This document shows positions 4,376 through 40,220 of a stretch of DNA of 64,000 nt, in pieces. The notes under the pieces are model-generated. The model was not told the origin of the DNA, made no database searches, and saw nothing but the letters and a program-made list of their open reading frames with translations. The translations under genes and the position numbers were made by a program. Numbering within the stretch: the first letter of the stretch is position 1; every line of letters starts with the position of its first letter. The DNA is from Paramacrobiotus metropolitanus (taxonomy: Eukaryota; Tardigrada; Eutardigrada; Parachela; Macrobiotidae): NCBI RefSeq assembly GCF_019649055.1, contig NW_026570226.1, forward strand, positions 124,001 through 188,000, written 5' to 3'.

Positions 4376-5556
4376 TCCTGCGAGTACTGCAAAATGCAAA
4401 TCAGAAGTGAAGCAATGCAATTTGCAGTTTGTTATTCAAAGACCCATCAAATAATGACTACGTTGCACTTACCTCCAAATTAGTACAAGGAATGTCCAAA
4501 AAAATAAGTCACAAACTGGGAAGCCGGAAAACGAACAAAATTACAGGCAAACCACGCAGTGCACAGGGTCTGAGGAAAAAAAATTCAAACCCAAAGTTGC
4601 AGCTGTAAAATTGTTACTAACAGCCGTGTATTGTACAAGTAACTCCAAACTTGCCACGTCCGTGCGTTAGGCAAATCTGATTCTAGTCTACAGTTATACA
4701 GCCCTTGGATGTCGAGCAGAAGGAACCTGGAGATGCTATCGAAAAGATAACGGAAAAGATTAGATCACTGCAGGCACCTGAATGTGTGTACACAATGCAA
4801 ACTTAATACAAATAATACAAATATTGTGGTACTGCCGTGTTGACAAGAAATTTTTACCTGCCATGCAACTGTATCTGTACGGTGTATACCTCTGTGAATT
4901 TGTTCAGTTTTGTTGCGAACATTGAGGTTCAAAGGTACCGCAGCTGCTGACTGCAGCGAAAAAGAAGAAAGCAGAACATATCCTCCGCTCATGCAGAAGA
5001 ATTCATATGTTCATTAGGAAATTGTTGTGTTTTGGTAAATTGATCAGCAGATTCGCACACACGCAGATTACTCTCTTGTACTGCGATCGCTGTCACAAAC
5101 CGTAATTTTACCGCGCGTACGTTACAAATCGGTCCATGTATTTATTTTAAAACTGATGAAATATTTTTCCGGTTTTTGCATCAGAATCTTCTTGAAGTTA
5201 TTCAATAATGCGTCGCACATTCTGACTTGCAATTGACAGGAAACACCACAAGCATTGTTTACAAGTAATCGACCGTACCGACATCAAATAAGAAGATTCT
5301 AACAAACCGGCAAAGATCTATTTCAGTTTTTAAAACTACGGTGTGTTGGACATCCATCAACCCCAACACAGAAATAAAATTCTCACTTTTGCAGTGCCTT
5401 TAGTCTCTTATATAAAATTGCCGCAAGCCAAACTGTGCATCGTTTCAATCAAAAGTAAAGTGCAACTCATACTCAATCGATCCATTTACGAAATTACTTA
5501 CGATTATTACAAACCAGCGGCTCATCATACAGTAATACAAGCTATGCAGGATCTGT
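4376..5556. other. Intergenic: AGXT2 upstream region and 3' flank of RNase H1 paralog A
   Basis: Both neighbouring genes are on the minus strand. At about 4880-4992 (minus) a short open stretch beginning MSGGYVLLSS ends near a possible GTATAC donor and could be a 5' noncoding or upstream exon, but no homology is recognisable. Nothing else can be supported. Confidence 0.4.
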
Positions 5557-7126
5557 TCAGGATTTCTTCCGTGCACCTTCGTTAGCTAACTTGTCGGCGT
5601 GTTTCTGTTCGTCAGCATCCGCACCAGCGAGATTCTGCATAATATAAATCAGAATTATCATTTTCCAGCCATTATACTCTATGCAAAACATAAAATTAGT
5701 GGTACTAGGGCAATGGTTACCCATGATATTTGCAGTCCTTCCGCGGCTTTCGCTAACTCTTGATAATCTTCCTTATTTGCCACGTCTGTTCCAGCATTTG
5801 TTTTCCATCCGTTCGATTTCCATTTGCTTACCCAAGAAGACATACCTGAGAAGAAAATGCAATGGTACAAAACTACAAAGTACGATCGTCGTCAGCTAAT
5901 AACCAACGAAGAAATGAAGTACGTATTTAGTTTACTTTTTTGCTTCGGACAACAATATAATTAATAATACGTACGATTACGAAAATAATAATAATACGTA
6001 CGATTACGAAAAACAATCGTCAATACTTGCTTTGATCCAGCGCTTACTTTGTATCAAGTTGGAGTTGTCGTTGTTAATAGTGACATCGCTTTTCCCAAGC
6101 TTTTTTATCTGATTCACAACACGAATAGCTGCATGAATTAGCGCACGATTCAAAGTAATTTTTCCGGAAATAGCAAGAGGTTCCGATAAATTGTTGGGTG
6201 AATCCTTGCCCCAGTAGATGCCCACCCCGGCGACCGGCTGTTTACCCAAATTGAAGGAACATCCGTCAACGTATACCTGCTCTCCACCTGCCGGCACAGA
6301 ACTTCAGCAATCGATTTTCAACGAGCGATTTCATATGTGCCACTACAAAACGCACAAACGCAGCTCTGCATTACCTGCACCCTTGGATGTGGCTTGGTTA
6401 CTGGTCTTTGCTTTTTTTGACGGGACCGATTCATCCTCAGAATCATCCGACTCCTGATCGGATTCAGATTCCTCCGATTCACTGGCGCTGTCCTCACGTT
6501 TTGATTTGGAAGCTGCTCCTCTTTTTCCGGTTGCTGCCTTCGTCGAAGCAGTTTTTCCCGGATTAGTTCCGGACACAAAACTTTCAGCTTCCTCCCGGGT
6601 GTCAAATTTTTTGAACTGTGCACCGTGGAATCCAATAGTCTGTTGCTGACAATCGTTCCTGCGAAACACGGCTATATGAAAAACCCATAAACTGCATAAA
6701 GCATGCTGGGAACACGACAGATAGGTATGTAGGAGAAGATCAAGAGAATGCAGAATGCTCGCATGATGATTTACTCTACTTCTGTGTTCATATTCTCACA
6801 ATCAAAGGAAGATTCAATAGATTTATGAGCCTAAAAAACAACTCTATGCAGGCTATGACTAATGAACATATGCCTCAATACTGCTTTTACAGTACGCAAT
6901 ACTACACATACCGACACAAAATAAACGATTCACAAAAAAATCTCCATATTTTTCACATAATATTATTATAATATCACTTCCGAACTCCACACTGCAGTAC
7001 AATATCGGCAGCGCGTTCAACTCTACGTTTCACAACCTAATGCCAAGCCTAAGTCAGCTTAAAAAGCACTCACCACTTCTCATAAACTCCTGGTTTCTTC
7101 CCTTTCTTCACAGCGTAAAAAGGCAT
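5557..7126 (-). CDS. RNase H1 paralog A: intact hybrid-binding domain, degenerate catalytic domain
   Basis: Exons 7074-7126, 6375-6658, 6048-6287, 5721-5845 and 5557-5634 sum to 780 nt (259 aa). The N-terminus (MPFYAVKKGKKPGVYEKW, then GFHGAQFKKFDTREEAESFV) is a typical RNase H1 RNA:DNA hybrid-binding domain. An acidic, Ser-rich disordered linker follows (about residues 65-105), then an RNase H fold beginning QVYVDGCSFNLG. Of the four catalytic acids, the first Asp (YVDG), the third (NNDNSN) and the fourth (HADKLANEGA) remain. The Glu of the usual NRAE motif is Leu (NRALIHAA), and the catalytic-loop H-x-x-GHxGxxGNE motif is replaced by NLAGADADEQ. All four intron positions and phases match paralog B at 38.4-40.2 kb. 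Open frame and clean splice sites argue against a dead pseudogene. I infer a hybrid-binding pseudoenzyme or an RNase H with little activity. An acceptor directly before the ATG indicates a 5'UTR intron. Confidence 0.85.
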
Positions 7127-8244
7127 CTGCAAAACACTTACATAAATAAACTATGGTAGAAGTACAAACAGGTAAATAAGCTTGCAGGAACTGTGTACTT
7201 GTACAGAAATTATATGCAGGATGAGTCCCGATTTCCTTGTTACTGCCGGGTGGCTTATCCAGTATTTCGTAATCTCTTTTAGCTGTTACTAGTAACTTAT
7301 AACTTACAATAGCAAAAGACTGTCCAAAATTCCCAATAAGTCTGCCTAATATCCAGACATACCTTGTTAAGATTTATTCACAGTCCTGCAACTCCAGATG
7401 AACGACGCTCCAGCTCCAAGAGGATGCTTCAATATCTCAGTACGGGCAACCGCTAGTTACAGCTGACGACTAGGCTTTGAGTGCGTTTAAATTAGCACAA
7501 ATAAAGGAAAATGTGACAGGCCACAAGATCACAGGAGCAGAAAACTAGTATGCATACTCATTCAAGATTACAGTTTTGAAAAAGTAACAGTGTACTGTAC
7601 ATCCATCTTTAGCGAGCTCAAGCAGAAGCCACAAGCAGGAAATGAGGCATTCCTCGTGCACCAAACATGCCAAAGGCATACAAATGCCGGCTGTCACAAA
7701 ACCGCTTCATGAGCCGCCGAAACAGTTGCGGCTGGTATAACGGTTGCCACAAATTCACAATCCATATTTATAACACGTACGAGTATAGGGTGCAACACAA
7801 GGAAAACTAAAAAACTGAAAGCACGTCGAAATTAAATGAGACAGTTTTTAAATTCTTTATGCCTTTAAACTTTTTTGTTTAAAGTACCACACTGGAGGCG
7901 GCGGTTACGCTACACATTTAAAGGAGTGGTTTCATTGTTCGTTATGCTTACCATGGTTAGTGGCAGTGCTTACACTTTACACACTTTTACAGAGCGTACG
8001 CGTAGCGGCGATGTATGTATGGGAGACCTCAGACCAAATTTGCCAAATTAAAAACTGAAAACATTTCTAAAAAGGTGGTTTTTATGGTTTTAAGTTGAGA
8101 GTCTTGAGACTGTTATTAATTTGTCAAATTTGATATCCTAGGATATACGGGAAAATTCTCCATTGGCGCGCCTGGCTAAATCTGGCTAACAGCCGCACAA
8201 AGGCCTTCAGGAAAGAACTTCAAAGAAGATCACGAAAGTCGGAC
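7127..8244. other. Divergent intergenic/promoter region between RNase H1 A and the HAUS4-like gene
   Basis: 1.1 kb separating two genes transcribed outward. It probably contains both promoters and the 5'UTR exon of RNase H1 A. No convincing TATA box or conserved coding segment was identified. Confidence 0.4.
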
Positions 8245-33820: not shown

Positions 33821-35747
33821 TCAATTTGCACACAAGGAATACAACAATTCGATTTCTTCTTTCCACATGGAGTCTTCTGTTTCCAGTATCATCGGTAAAT
33901 TGTTTGTTCTAGGGTCGTTCATCAACCAGCGAAACCCATCCAGACCTATCAAACCTACGTAACAAAAAGGGTTACCGTAAAGACTTAAAAACAACCATAC
34001 ACGAATAGATAAGCCACAGCAGTAATACAATATAAAAAAGCTATAAACACTGTAAAAGTAACACTAGCTATAATTTAAAAGCTTTAAACCGTAAATTCAG
34101 CGTTTCCAAGTAAACTCTTCAGCTAGTAAGCGGTACAAAAGTAAACCAGGCAAAAATGAACAAATTAAAGAGCCTACACCACTTAAGATAGGCTTGTGAT
34201 GATAAAATAGATCACTTTTCCAACGAAAGTTATGTCTTTAAACTAAAAGTCATTCATGAGTGAATTTATCAATTACACCCAATTGGAGAAATTGCGAATT
34301 GCTGAGCACCTTTTCCAATATGCGCATGACGATCCCTGTGCGCTCCGCATGCGAACATGCTATCATTTAGATGGAACGCCTTCACTCGTTTCAAACCAAC
34401 AGTGCGGTCTACATCGCTCATGAGAGTGTTCCATCCTTCTTCCGTCCTGATATCATTCCCCGCGGCAAATGCATGGCACGTATCAATACAGACGCCCACC
34501 CTGTGCTGGTAAGCCTGATCAATCTTCCCGATTATGGCGGCCAGTTCCTCAAATTTACCACCGATAGTGGAACCCTGACCGCACATGTTCTCCAGTAAAA
34601 GCGTGACGCTGAAGGTTTGAGCAAGAACATCGTTTGCCGATGCTGCGATCCGTGTTATGCATTCGTCAACAGTTATCTTGCCACAGGTGGAACCAGGATG
34701 GATATTGTAGTACGGTATTCCCAACATCTCGCAACGCTGCATTTCATCCAGCATGCCAGCCCGCGCCTTTTCCAACACGCTGTCGTCCGGAGATCCTGAA
34801 AAATTGAACGAGACTACATCCGGAATTCCTTGTGCCATCCAAAACAGCGGCTTAAAGGCGGTAAAATATACGTCTATTACGCGTTCGTTAACTGTTCTCA
34901 AAAAAATGTTCAAAAATGTACAAAACAAAAGCTGGAGGAAATATTTTACCATCATATATAAAAAACTGCAACGAATTAGCAACCCTAAAAAACTACTTAA
35001 TAGGTTCAGCAATTTCAGCGGTGGCATTTTTATTGGAAAATTTGAAGCGATTTCTCCGTACCAGGATTAATCAGATAACTCCCATGGCACACAATCTTGG
35101 AAGCGTCAATTCCCGATTCCGTAAGAACCTGCTTGAATTTCTCTACATTTTCCGGCTTCAGCGGAGGACACTTCCAAGTGCGCGCGCTGCGGACAAAAAG
35201 CGCAAAGGCTTTGGCGCCAATTTCGACAGCCTGCAGCACCGCAGTCTGCGGCCCACCCGAAATCGAAGTGTGTGCGCCAACAAATTTTAAAGATTTTCCA
35301 CTCGCCGTGTGATCTGTACGGACTGTGTTAGACGAAGACACACCGCCATCCGAAGTACGAGAAGTTGCAATGGCCTCGTTCGAGCCACTTGCAGTGTTTT
35401 CGTTGCATGCTGCTGCATCGCCAGAAATCTTTGGGTGTTTAGTGTTCTCCACTCGCTGCTCTGGAGTTTCCTACAGGAAGGACGAAAGTTCTTGTTTAAC
35501 TGCCTAATCAATGCTTTGTTGCGACCCAAAGAACAACAATAAATTTGTACCATATAAGAAGTAACGGTAACTTTATCACTTGGAAATAAGAGTACCAGTT
35601 ATTTAAATTCTGCGCTTTTCTATTTACATTTTTATATAATTCATTCTGTACTAATTATTACTACATTAGAACAGTTTCTGACATAAGACATGTTGAGGGC
35701 TGACTTACTTGCCTCTGACGTTTCCGAGTGTAATTCCGTTTAGGCAT
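33821..35747 (-). CDS. APN1: Endonuclease IV family AP endonuclease (Apn1/Nfo)
   Basis: Exons 35709-35747, 35062-35470, 34310-34795 and 33821-33954 sum to 1068 nt (355 aa). A 13-codon first exon ([13 protein letters not shown]) is strongly basic and could be a nuclear signal. The TIM-barrel begins [12 protein letters not shown]. All nine metal ligands are present: His in GAHTS and in HGSYLINPG, Glu in [10 protein letters not shown], Asp and His in [10 protein letters not shown], His in KAFHLND, Asp and His in DRHAHIGKG, and Glu in MILETED. The family cleaves DNA 5' to abasic sites with three zinc ions in base-excision repair. It is found in bacteria, fungi and invertebrates such as C. elegans, not in mammals. 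An alternative unspliced reading of exon 2 ends [14 protein letters not shown] and is inferior. The 5' half of the gene is repeated upstream (35904-36892). Confidence 0.93.
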
Positions 35748-36892
35748 TATTTCGGATGTCCTGGTCGCATTCGCGTGGAGAAAACGCTTCCCAAAATTTC
35801 GAAGGTAAACTGACAATAGTTAGGCTCAAAATTCAGTTATGAAGATATCAGCGAAGGAAATCTGTGACACACGCTTGAAAAAATCGAACTTCGAACCTTA
35901 ACAAACTGTTCTCAAAAAATGTTCAAAATGTACAAAACAAAAGCTGGAGGAAATATTTTACCATCATATATAAAAACTGCAACGAATTAGCAACCCTAAA
36001 AACTACTTAATAGGTTCAGCAATTTCAGCGGTGGCATGATTTCTCCGTACCAGGATTAATCAGATAACTCCCATGGCACACAATCTTGGAAGCGTCAATT
36101 CCCGATTCCGTAAGAACCTGCTTGAATTTCTCTACATTTTCCGGCTTCAGCGGAGGACACTTCCAAGTGCGCGCTGCGGACAAAAGCGCAAAGGCTTTGG
36201 CGCCAATTTCGACAGCCTGCAGCACCGCAGTCTGCGGCCCACCCGAAATCGAAGTGTGTGCGCCAACAAATTTTAAAGATTTTCCACTCGCCGTGTGATC
36301 TGTACGGACTGTGTTAGACGAAGACACACCGCCATCCGAAGTACGAGAAGTTGCAATGGCCTCGTTCGAGCCACTTGCAGTGTTTTCGTTGCATGCTGCT
36401 GCATCGCCAGAAATCTTTGGGTGTTTAGTGTTCTCCACTCGCTGCTCTGGAGTTTCCTACAGGAAGGACGAAAGTTCTTGTTTAACTGCCTAATCAATGC
36501 TTTGTTGCGACCCAAAGAACAACAATAAATTTGTACCATATAAGAAGTAACGGTAACTTTATCACTTGGAAATAAGAGTACCAGTTATTTAAATTCTGCG
36601 CTTTTCTATTTACATTTTTATATAATTCATTCTGTACTAATTATTACTACATTAGAACAGTTTCTGACATAAGACATGTTGAGGGCTGACTTACTTGCCT
36701 CTGACGTTTCCGAGTGTAATTCCGTTTAGGCATTATTTCGGATGTCCTGGTCGCATTCGCGTGGAGAAAACGCTTCCCAAAATTTCGAAGGTAAACTGAC
36801 AATAGTTAGGCTCAAAATTCAGTTATGAAGATATCAGCGAAGGAAATCTGTGACACACGCTTGAAAAAATCGAACTTCGAACCTTAACAAAC
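34890..36892. repeat. Direct tandem duplication covering the 5' part of APN1 (copies 34890-35903 and 35904-36892)
   Basis: Copy 1 is 1014 nt and copy 2 is 986 nt up to the matching point. I found no substitution between them. The 28-nt difference is wholly explained by one 21-nt gap (present at 35028-35048, absent in copy 2), a loss of GC in a GC repeat, and single-A losses in five A runs. All differences fall in the first 320 nt; the remaining roughly 690 nt, including an intron and upstream DNA, look identical. Copy 1 matches the family ([11 protein letters not shown]) while copy 2 reads FALLSAARTW, so copy 2 is the deviant one. An assembly or read-error artefact is likely; a very recent tandem duplication is the alternative. 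Confidence 0.92.
36051..36733 (-). pseudogene. Second copy of APN1 exons 1 and 2 (partial gene or assembly duplicate)
   Basis: Exon 1 copy at 36695-36733 and exon 2 copy at 36051-36456 (406 nt versus 409). The protein is identical to the upstream half of APN1 except for a net one-residue loss next to the conserved Phe-Val-Arg-Ser. Exons 3 and 4 are absent, so this copy alone cannot make an enzyme. If the duplication is real, transcripts could start in this copy and splice past copy 1. Confidence 0.8.
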
Positions 36893-38435: not shown

Positions 38436-40220
38436 ATGTTAAATTCTTTCGCCAGACTGTGTGATCTTTCTTCGTGCTTTACCACTTCCACCGTCAAACT
38501 GTCGCTGTTAAGCAAATCCTCCTGTCTTGTGACGGGAATCGCGCAGTTATCCTGGCGCAGTGTACGGACGATATTTCTCGCAAACCCTGTGATGGCTCCC
38601 GCTGCTTACTACGGTGTTCGAGCGGGAAAGGTTCCGGGCGTGTATACCACTTGGTCGGTTGTTTGACTTGCTCTCACTTCCAACCATTTGCTTTGCTATG
38701 GCACTGGTCATGATGCATTGCAGTATGTATTAATGGGATTGCTTTTTTCCAGGGCAGAGTGCAACGCTCAGGTCCAAGGTTTTCCAAAATGCAAATTTAA
38801 GAAGTTCAAAACCCGCGAAGAAGCTCAACAGTTTGTTAATGGACCGGATTTTCAGCCGTCAGGTAGCGCAGCGAATGAAGGATTCGACGCTTCCTCAGGC
38901 GGATCGTCCGATTACGATGCGGATCTGAATGAGCCTGCCTCGAGTACACAAAGAAAACGGCCAGCTGATTTTGATCGGCAGCACTTTTTGAAAGGCACCG
39001 GTGGCTTCATTAATTCGGCGCTCTCAGCACCAGTCGGATTTGTCAGACATTTTTCGACCAGTTCATCCAGCTGCACAACGAATGCCGGTAAAGAAAACCT
39101 TGTAGTTGTATAGTTAGTACGGGAAAATTTGATAAAACTGTATTCGATACAAGTAAACCGACACAGCAAACGTTTGAAATCGTTTTCATTTAGGATTGTT
39201 AAATTAATTGTATGATTTGTATCATCCTAGATCTTTACTTTAATGGGTTTACCCTTTTGCTGTTAACTATCTGACCAAAAGAAATACCTGTGTGTGCTGA
39301 GTAGTGTTCGTCCCGCCTGAATTAAATATTTTGCGGTGCTGATTTTTCATTTTAATGCGGTGATAACTGGTCAGTTAGTAACGATACAAAGTTATTAATG
39401 AAACTTCACCATAATTCTAATATTTGACTCAAAGAATAAGTAATTCATCGTCATATAATTGTTGAAATAATGAATATCTATATAGATTGTGGGGTAAAAC
39501 TTCGCTTAAAAAATTTTGTCGTGTGTATTTTGTCGCAATAATATTTGATGCGTTCATGTAAATTCATGGTTGTTCTAGCTTCGCCATCCCCGCAGCATGA
39601 TCCTTCTCGAGTTGGTTCCGTATGGGTAGATGGCTGCTGTCGGAATAACGGGAACAGTGCCGCATTGGCTGGTATCGGCGTATTCTGGGAAAAGGACTCA
39701 CCGTACAATGTTGCCGAACCACTTGCTGGACGGCCCTCGAACCAGCGTGCAGAAATCTGCGCGGCAGTGAGAGCTGTTCGACAAGCGAAGGAACAAGGAA
39801 TGACCAAACTCATTGTCCACACAGACAGCAACTACCTTGTTCAGGGTATGCCAAGCTACGTGGGACGCCAAACCAGTTGATTTGTATATCGTTGATGTGA
39901 TTGCAGCGATGACGGAATGGCTGCCCAATTGGCTTTCAAATGGATGGCGTTCTGCGCGTGGTCCTGTGGTAAATCAGGAAGATTTTAAATCCTTGCTGGA
40001 CACAATCAAGAGCAGCGAAGTGGAAATCGAATGGGTACCGTCTTAACCGATAATTCTCCTTAATTGTCTCAAATGTAACCTTTTGCAGAAACATATTAGA
40101 GGGCATATGGGAATCACTGGAAACGAAGCCGCCGACAAATTGGCTAACGAAGGGGCTTTAAAAGGCGAAAAGTTTTGCGAAAGTGTACTGGGTAAAGATG
40201 CTGCGAGCACTCTGTTGTGA
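38436..40220 (+). CDS. RNASEH1: RNase H1 paralog B, catalytically intact, with possible mitochondrial and nuclear starts
   Basis: Exons 38436-38653, 38753-39087, 39579-39845, 39907-40034 and 40089-40220 give 1080 nt (359 aa); from the inner ATG 38592 the protein is 307 aa. The hybrid-binding domain reads YYGVRAGKVPGVYTTW, then AECNAQVQGFPKCKFKKF. After a Ser-rich linker the RNase H domain has all catalytic acids: Asp in VWVDG, Glu in QRAEICAA, Asp in HTDSNYL and Asp in EAADKLA, plus the loop His in HIRGHMGITGNE. It degrades RNA in RNA:DNA hybrids (R-loops, primers, mtDNA replication). The 52 residues between the two ATGs contain R/K/S/L and a single acidic residue, like a mitochondrial presequence; vertebrate RNASEH1 also uses two AUGs. 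Intron positions and phases equal those of paralog A (5.6-7.1 kb, opposite strand). Confidence 0.92.

Follow-up and report, generated by a model that had tools for sequence, protein, structure and literature searches.

The window analyzed here, a 64-kb stretch of intron-rich eukaryotic DNA, contains two genes whose predicted products combine a hybrid-binding domain (HBD) with an RNase H domain. Gene A occupies positions 5557-7126 on the minus strand, limits that had been given in an earlier note on this DNA and that coincide exactly with the ends of its coding region. It consists of five exons, separated by introns of 415, 87, 202 and 86 nt that all have GT-AG boundaries, and provides 780 nt in frame for a protein of 259 amino acids, with neither stops, frameshifts nor broken splice sites. 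Exon 1 (7074..7126) carries the start codon, at 7126, and the N-terminal part of the HBD up to W18, the equivalent of human W43, and is followed by a GTGAGT donor. The remainder of the HBD, including an FKKF motif (human F58-K59-K60), is encoded by exon 2 (6375..6658), together with a linker of ~65 residues, 13 of them acidic and 11 basic. Exon 3 (6048..6287) covers the first half of the RNase H domain, in which the Asp residues of the VDGC and NND motifs are kept and the catalytic Glu is replaced by Leu in the sequence NRAL. Exon 4 (5721..5845) contributes the protrusion region WVSKWKSNGWKTNAG and the sequence NKED and retains the equivalents of W221, W225, G229, W230 and N240, while exon 5 (5557..5634) encodes a degenerate active-site loop (NLAGADADEQKHAD), the last Asp, which is kept, and the stop codon. 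The HBD matches Pfam family PF01693 (Cauli_VI, the RNase H1 N-terminal domain) over residues 2-45 with 74.6 bits (cut-off 21), and the RNase H domain matches PF00075 (RNase_H) over residues 116-255 with 63.2 bits (cut-off 25.8). All NCBIfam matches of A and of its relative B, described below, stayed under their cut-offs.

Several features flank this coding region on the same strand. An acceptor-like site (TTTTGCAG) lies immediately upstream of the ATG and may terminate an intron (7127..7362) that joins a putative untranslated first exon, with 7363 as its last base (exon end AAG, intron start GTATGT), to the start codon. An AATAAA hexamer at 5141..5146, ~410 nt beyond the stop codon, resembles a polyadenylation signal, although the evidence is weak because such a hexamer may occur by chance. 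Within intron 3, a stretch of ~20 bases (plus-strand reading taatacgtacgattacgaaaa) was seen by eye to occur twice, nearly in tandem, at 5965-6012.

Gene B lies on the plus strand at 38436-40220, ~31 kb from gene A. It likewise has five exons with GT-AG introns, in this case of 99, 491, 61 and 54 nt, and encodes a protein of 359 amino acids that matches both Cauli_VI (71.2 bits) and RNase_H (109.1 bits). Its first exon (38436..38653) specifies 57 residues ahead of the Pfam HBD match, which by eye resemble a mitochondrial presequence, and the start of the HBD; the rest of the HBD and the linker follow in exon 2 (38753..39087). Exon 3 (39579..39845) contains VDGC, QRAE with the catalytic Glu (GAA at 39752-39754) and HTDS, exon 4 spans 39907..40034, and exon 5 (40089..40220) provides the HIRGHMGITGNEAAD loop and the last catalytic Asp.

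The two genes had been described in the earlier note as paralogs with identical intron positions and phases. Their paralogy is borne out by the shared domains (Cauli_VI and RNase_H), by intron phases that are 2,1,1,0 in both and by three of the four intron positions, with introns 1, 3 and 4 falling into the same alignment column. The claim does not extend to intron 2, which interrupts a poorly conserved, unalignable part of the linker at different columns (198 in A and 186 in B in the pairwise alignment, 203 and 190 in an alignment of 32 sequences) and agrees in phase and rough place only. The matching phases and the three introns at the same aligned residue indicate that A and B are duplicates of one gene and that A is not a processed copy. 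By descent and architecture, the predicted protein A is an RNase H1, with the HBD, the RNase H domain and the shared gene structure all in place. Additional copies in the window were considered and rejected, as a tblastn search of the 64 kb with A returned genes A and B only at E values up to 0.01.

Of 20 open frames from the window that were scanned against Pfam, 13 had a match at E values up to 0.001, and the families represented include HAUS4, MIF4G_like (nuclear cap-binding type), RRM, CLP1, an adenylate kinase-type family and AP endonuclease. The intron-rich genes and the HAUS4 and CLP1 matches give the impression that the DNA is probably of animal origin. A frame suspected to encode a receptor-like protein had no Pfam match, and Rfam and tRNA searches of the window returned nothing. 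Elsewhere in the window, at 34902-36481, direct copies ~1 kb apart share blocks of 300 and 137 nt at 100% and of 63 nt at 92% identity, with slightly different spacings. The copy at 35030-35470 (minus strand) has a weak AP_endonuc_2 match below the cut-off and adjoins a strong match at 34269-35066, and the copy at 36025-36456 has no Pfam match; the region was either duplicated in tandem very recently or duplicated falsely in the assembly.

Loss of conserved active-site residues in gene A

To provide a yardstick of conservation, A, B and the chain of human RNase H1 were aligned by script with 29 bacterial loci that match the RNase H domain (from 29 of 137 stretches). Position 210 of the human chain was set to Asp, the solved chain being that of a D210N construct. 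The bacterial set is biased in that its members were found with short patterns taken from A, and each open frame was aligned over its C-terminal 200 residues. Fifteen sites of the RNase H domain are identical in the human protein, B and all 29 bacterial loci. A keeps nine of them (D145, G146, D210, W221, W225, G229, W230, N240 and D274, in human numbering) and changes the other six, with Leu for N182, Leu for E186, Asn for S211 and, in a shorter loop whose residue pairings are approximate and whose gap position varies between pairwise alignments, Ala for G263, Asp for H264 and Gln for N270. All three catalytic Asp residues (D145, D210 and D274) are hence among the retained sites, and the Asp-Glu-Asp-Asp set is nevertheless incomplete.

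The residue that replaces the catalytic Glu (human E186, E. coli E48) is encoded by CTA at 6139..6141, whereas B has GAA. A single base error at this site was considered and rejected, given that the two codons lie two bases apart; the loop, moreover, differs at several codons. No GHxG or GNE motif was found in the three minus-strand frames of 4501-7500, and we therefore also rejected the idea that a canonical loop exon had been overlooked. A lone GH in this region (GGHLL, ~6223) is in a frame other than that of gene A and does not form a GHxG motif. The column of H264 contains His in the human protein, B and 29/29 loci and Asp in A. The sole His of A's last exon, in the sequence QKHAD, lies two residues ahead of the last Asp, at the position of human E272, and does not represent the loop His. 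The predicted protein A is consequently without two of the defining features of an active RNase H1 for which we tested, the Asp-Glu-Asp-Asp set and the His in the GHxGxxGN loop. These results uphold what the earlier note had read from the sequence: a full catalytic set in B, and in A the exchange of the catalytic Glu for Leu (NRAL), the absence of an H-x-x-GHxGxxGNE loop, an intact HBD and an undamaged frame with proper splice sites.

Similar sequences were also sought in viral DNA. A pattern search of viral contigs picked out 17 stretches, none of which codes for a relative of A, and a scan of 181 stretches with an alignment of A and B yielded three weak loci. Matches were obtained in 93 phage records, all below 60% identity; among the eight of these 93 that were listed, identity was 31% over 60% of the query and the proteins, where annotated, were RNases H by name.

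Divergence pattern and probable coding constraint

The residues corresponding to W43, K59 and K60 of the human HBD are identical in A, and the HBDs of A and B are equally similar to that of the human protein, with 24/46 identities each. In the RNase H domain, A shares 54/145 and B 63/144 residues with the human enzyme. At sites where B equals human, A retains 18/24 residues in the HBD and 36/49 in the RNase H domain outside the active-site segments (human 182-186, 209-211 and 259-271), compared with 3/15 inside them. The difference between the inside and the outside gave a Fisher p of 0.0005, a value to be read with the caveat that the segments were picked after inspection of the data; retention in the HBD and in the whole RNase H domain (18/24 versus 39/64) does not differ significantly (p 0.32). 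As judged from these comparisons, the losses in protein A are clustered at the active site.

Over 180 aligned codons, A and B differ with a dN of 0.58, and the NG86 method gave no dS, which we read as saturation; at fourfold sites with identical residues, 20/32 differ. When random substitutions without indels were simulated (1000 copies each), stops were absent from 14% of the copies after 0.05 substitutions per site and from 2.5% after 0.1. A divergence between A and B that is too great for dS to be estimated, together with the open frame of A, argues against long neutral decay. Coding constraint has probably acted on A during most of its existence, a conclusion that is compatible with a recent relaxation.

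Different N-termini of the two proteins

The 57 residues that precede the HBD of B include 10 Ser, 9 Leu, 5 Thr, 5 Arg or Lys and one Asp, with no Glu, and an internal Met is found at residue 53, between the presequence-like N-terminus and the HBD. The same arrangement is known from mammalian and Drosophila RNase H1, in which two start codons give rise to mitochondrial and nuclear forms (PMC6433063), and B, by this likeness, probably also serves both mitochondria and nucleus from two start codons. A, on the other hand, begins directly at the HBD. An N-terminal extension was sought upstream of the ATG, and in-frame stops were met whether the sequence was read without splicing or by way of one candidate noncoding first exon. 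We infer from this predicted N-terminus that A resides in the nucleus or cytosol. The difference between the N-termini, which the earlier note had not mentioned in suggesting that A possibly competes with B, would confine such competition to the nucleus or cytosol.

Discussion

Our results point to gene A as an old, protein-coding duplicate of an RNase H1 gene that has turned into a pseudoenzyme, a binder of RNA:DNA hybrids that does not cleave them. This is the best explanation of its sequence, and we consider it probable, if by no means assured. The HBD of A is predicted to still bind hybrids, and its RNase H domain would probably still fold and contact the DNA strand. Without the catalytic Glu, a metal-site residue, and without N182 and the His264 loop, the protein would not be expected to cleave at a normal rate. 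Located in the nucleus or cytosol, it could occupy hybrids and thereby shield them from B or bring in other factors, with the paralog B retaining the cutting function. A might in this way compete with B or protect R-loops, the two roles that the earlier note had put forward as possible for a non-cutting binder; the note's reading of A as a protein that retains hybrid binding and does not cut is partly supported and stays a prediction.

Work on the human and bacterial enzymes gives this proposal a basis. A D210N variant of human RNase H1 has been described to bind hybrids without cleaving them, and additional exchanges in the HBD (W43A, K59A and K60A, giving WKKD) turn it into a non-binding control (PMC6868509). 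The exchanges W43A or KK59/60AA also abolish focal labeling by a triple-HBD sensor (PMC10639055), and a tagged HBD was reported to prefer RNA:DNA hybrids to other nucleic acids in vitro (PMC7888926). According to the same source, competition with endogenous enzymes is possible for a dead RNase H1 (PMC7888926). Glu48 of E. coli RNase HI lies close to the B-site metal, and an H124A exchange in this enzyme lowers activity substantially (PMC8900815), suggesting that the Leu and the missing His loop of A should cripple cleavage and may spare binding. Some observations call for caution. The loop His is not universal in active RNases H, its role being taken by a Glu in the B. halodurans enzyme (PMC8900815). 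In living cells, moreover, human D210N and a single HBD were reported to stain diffusely, without foci (PMC10639055), suggesting that an HBD on its own may have only a loose hold on hybrids and slightly lowering our confidence in A as a hybrid binder.

The most obvious alternatives concern the activity of A and the state of its gene. We think it unlikely that A still cuts, whether slowly or with Mn2+ and perhaps with an altered choice of substrate, although D145, D210, D274, N240, W221 and W225 are all kept and although Glu48 mutants of E. coli RNase HI are Mn2+-activated, according to the title of a study (Tsunaka et al. 2005, cited in PMC9719913); the three retained Asp residues and these mutants count against certainty about the loss of cleavage. 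Variation in substrate specificity and bivalent cation needs among the RNases H1 of C. elegans, as announced by a title cited in PMC1950709, is in line with such an activity as well. Set against it is the joint loss of the Glu, the loop His, N182 and S211, each of them invariant in the human protein, B and 29/29 bacterial loci, when the H124A exchange alone already has a substantial effect in E. coli (PMC8900815). We see a similarly small chance that gene A was silenced recently or is decaying into a pseudogene, with no present function. At least three pseudogenes of RNASEH1 exist in human (PMC1950709), and the RNase H domain of A is both more diverged from the human one than that of B (54/145 versus 63/144 identities) and lower in its Pfam score (63.2 versus 109.1 bits). 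However, the five exons and four GT-AG introns are intact, with no stop or frameshift, in a gene whose dS to B is beyond estimation, when as little as 0.1 substitutions per site left 2.5% of simulated copies stop-free; its HBD has kept as many identities to human as that of B (24/46 each), and its losses are clustered in the active site, in segments picked after inspection. The evidence of the open frame weighs against a long neutral decay but not against a recent relaxation.

It is less probable still that A acts mainly through protein contacts, as a regulator of B or a scaffold, instead of as a hybrid binder. There is precedent for such roles, since the human HBD also binds the protein P32 (PMC3750045), retroviruses and some Ty3-gypsy elements use inactive RNase H copies as linkers or tethers, and Prp8 contains an inactive RNase H domain (PMC5603734). 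Yet, the HBD residues that are important for hybrid binding are conserved in A, and a contact between A and B is hypothetical.

If A is indeed a non-cleaving hybrid binder, a duplicate that kept its binding module and lost its cutting site alone would suggest that holding R-loops can be useful to a cell apart from their removal. A would then be an evolved hybrid binder comparable to the R-loop sensors that have been engineered from human RNase H1, and it would allow selection for R-loop protection to be tested directly. It is tempting to speculate, as a tentative extension that we rate as possible but rather doubtful, that this lineage maintains an RNase H1 pseudoenzyme devoted to binding R-loops in the nucleus and to guarding them against the active paralog, a naturally evolved equivalent of the laboratory mutant D210N, with cutting and hybrid-holding split between two genes and partly between two compartments.

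Relation to known RNase H proteins

In general, neither pseudoenzyme paralogs nor inactive RNase H domains are new. Most eukaryotic genomes were stated, with the data not shown, to contain one HBD-bearing RNase H1 gene (PMC1950709). Among the titles and abstract openings listed in a literature search that mostly lacked subscription papers, none describes an HBD-bearing RNase H1 paralog devoid of the catalytic Glu. Among the closest points of reference is human RNASEH1 (6vrd, 2qk9), which has the same order of HBD, linker and RNase H domain and aligns with residues 3-257 of A at an E value of 2e-41. A shares its W43, K59, K60, D145, D274 and N240, as well as an Asp at 210, and differs from it by Leu for E186, Leu for N182, Asn for S211 and the lack of the H264 loop. 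The predicted behavior of A, binding without cutting, is that of human D210N, a dead laboratory mutant used in R-ChIP (PMC6868509). However, D210N owes this property to an engineered exchange of Asp for Asn, whereas A retains that very Asp and is devoid of the Glu and the His loop.

Among animals, C. elegans also has more than one RNase H1 gene, one with an HBD and three without (PMC1950709), while A combines an HBD with an incomplete catalytic set. RNase HI of the B. subtilis type (Group A of PMC1950709), described there as inactive and without the basic protrusion, would resemble A in having an RNase H1 fold devoid of nuclease activity, but the protrusion region is still present in A, as is an HBD. 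The tether RNase H domains of retroviruses and some Ty3-gypsy elements and the Prp8 domain similarly represent duplicated or captured RNases H that have lost catalysis and adopted a structural role (PMC5603734). They are, however, parts of other proteins, whereas A constitutes a gene of its own with the architecture of an RNase H1. From its predicted product, A differs from these relatives in combining the full architecture of an RNase H1 with a damaged active site.
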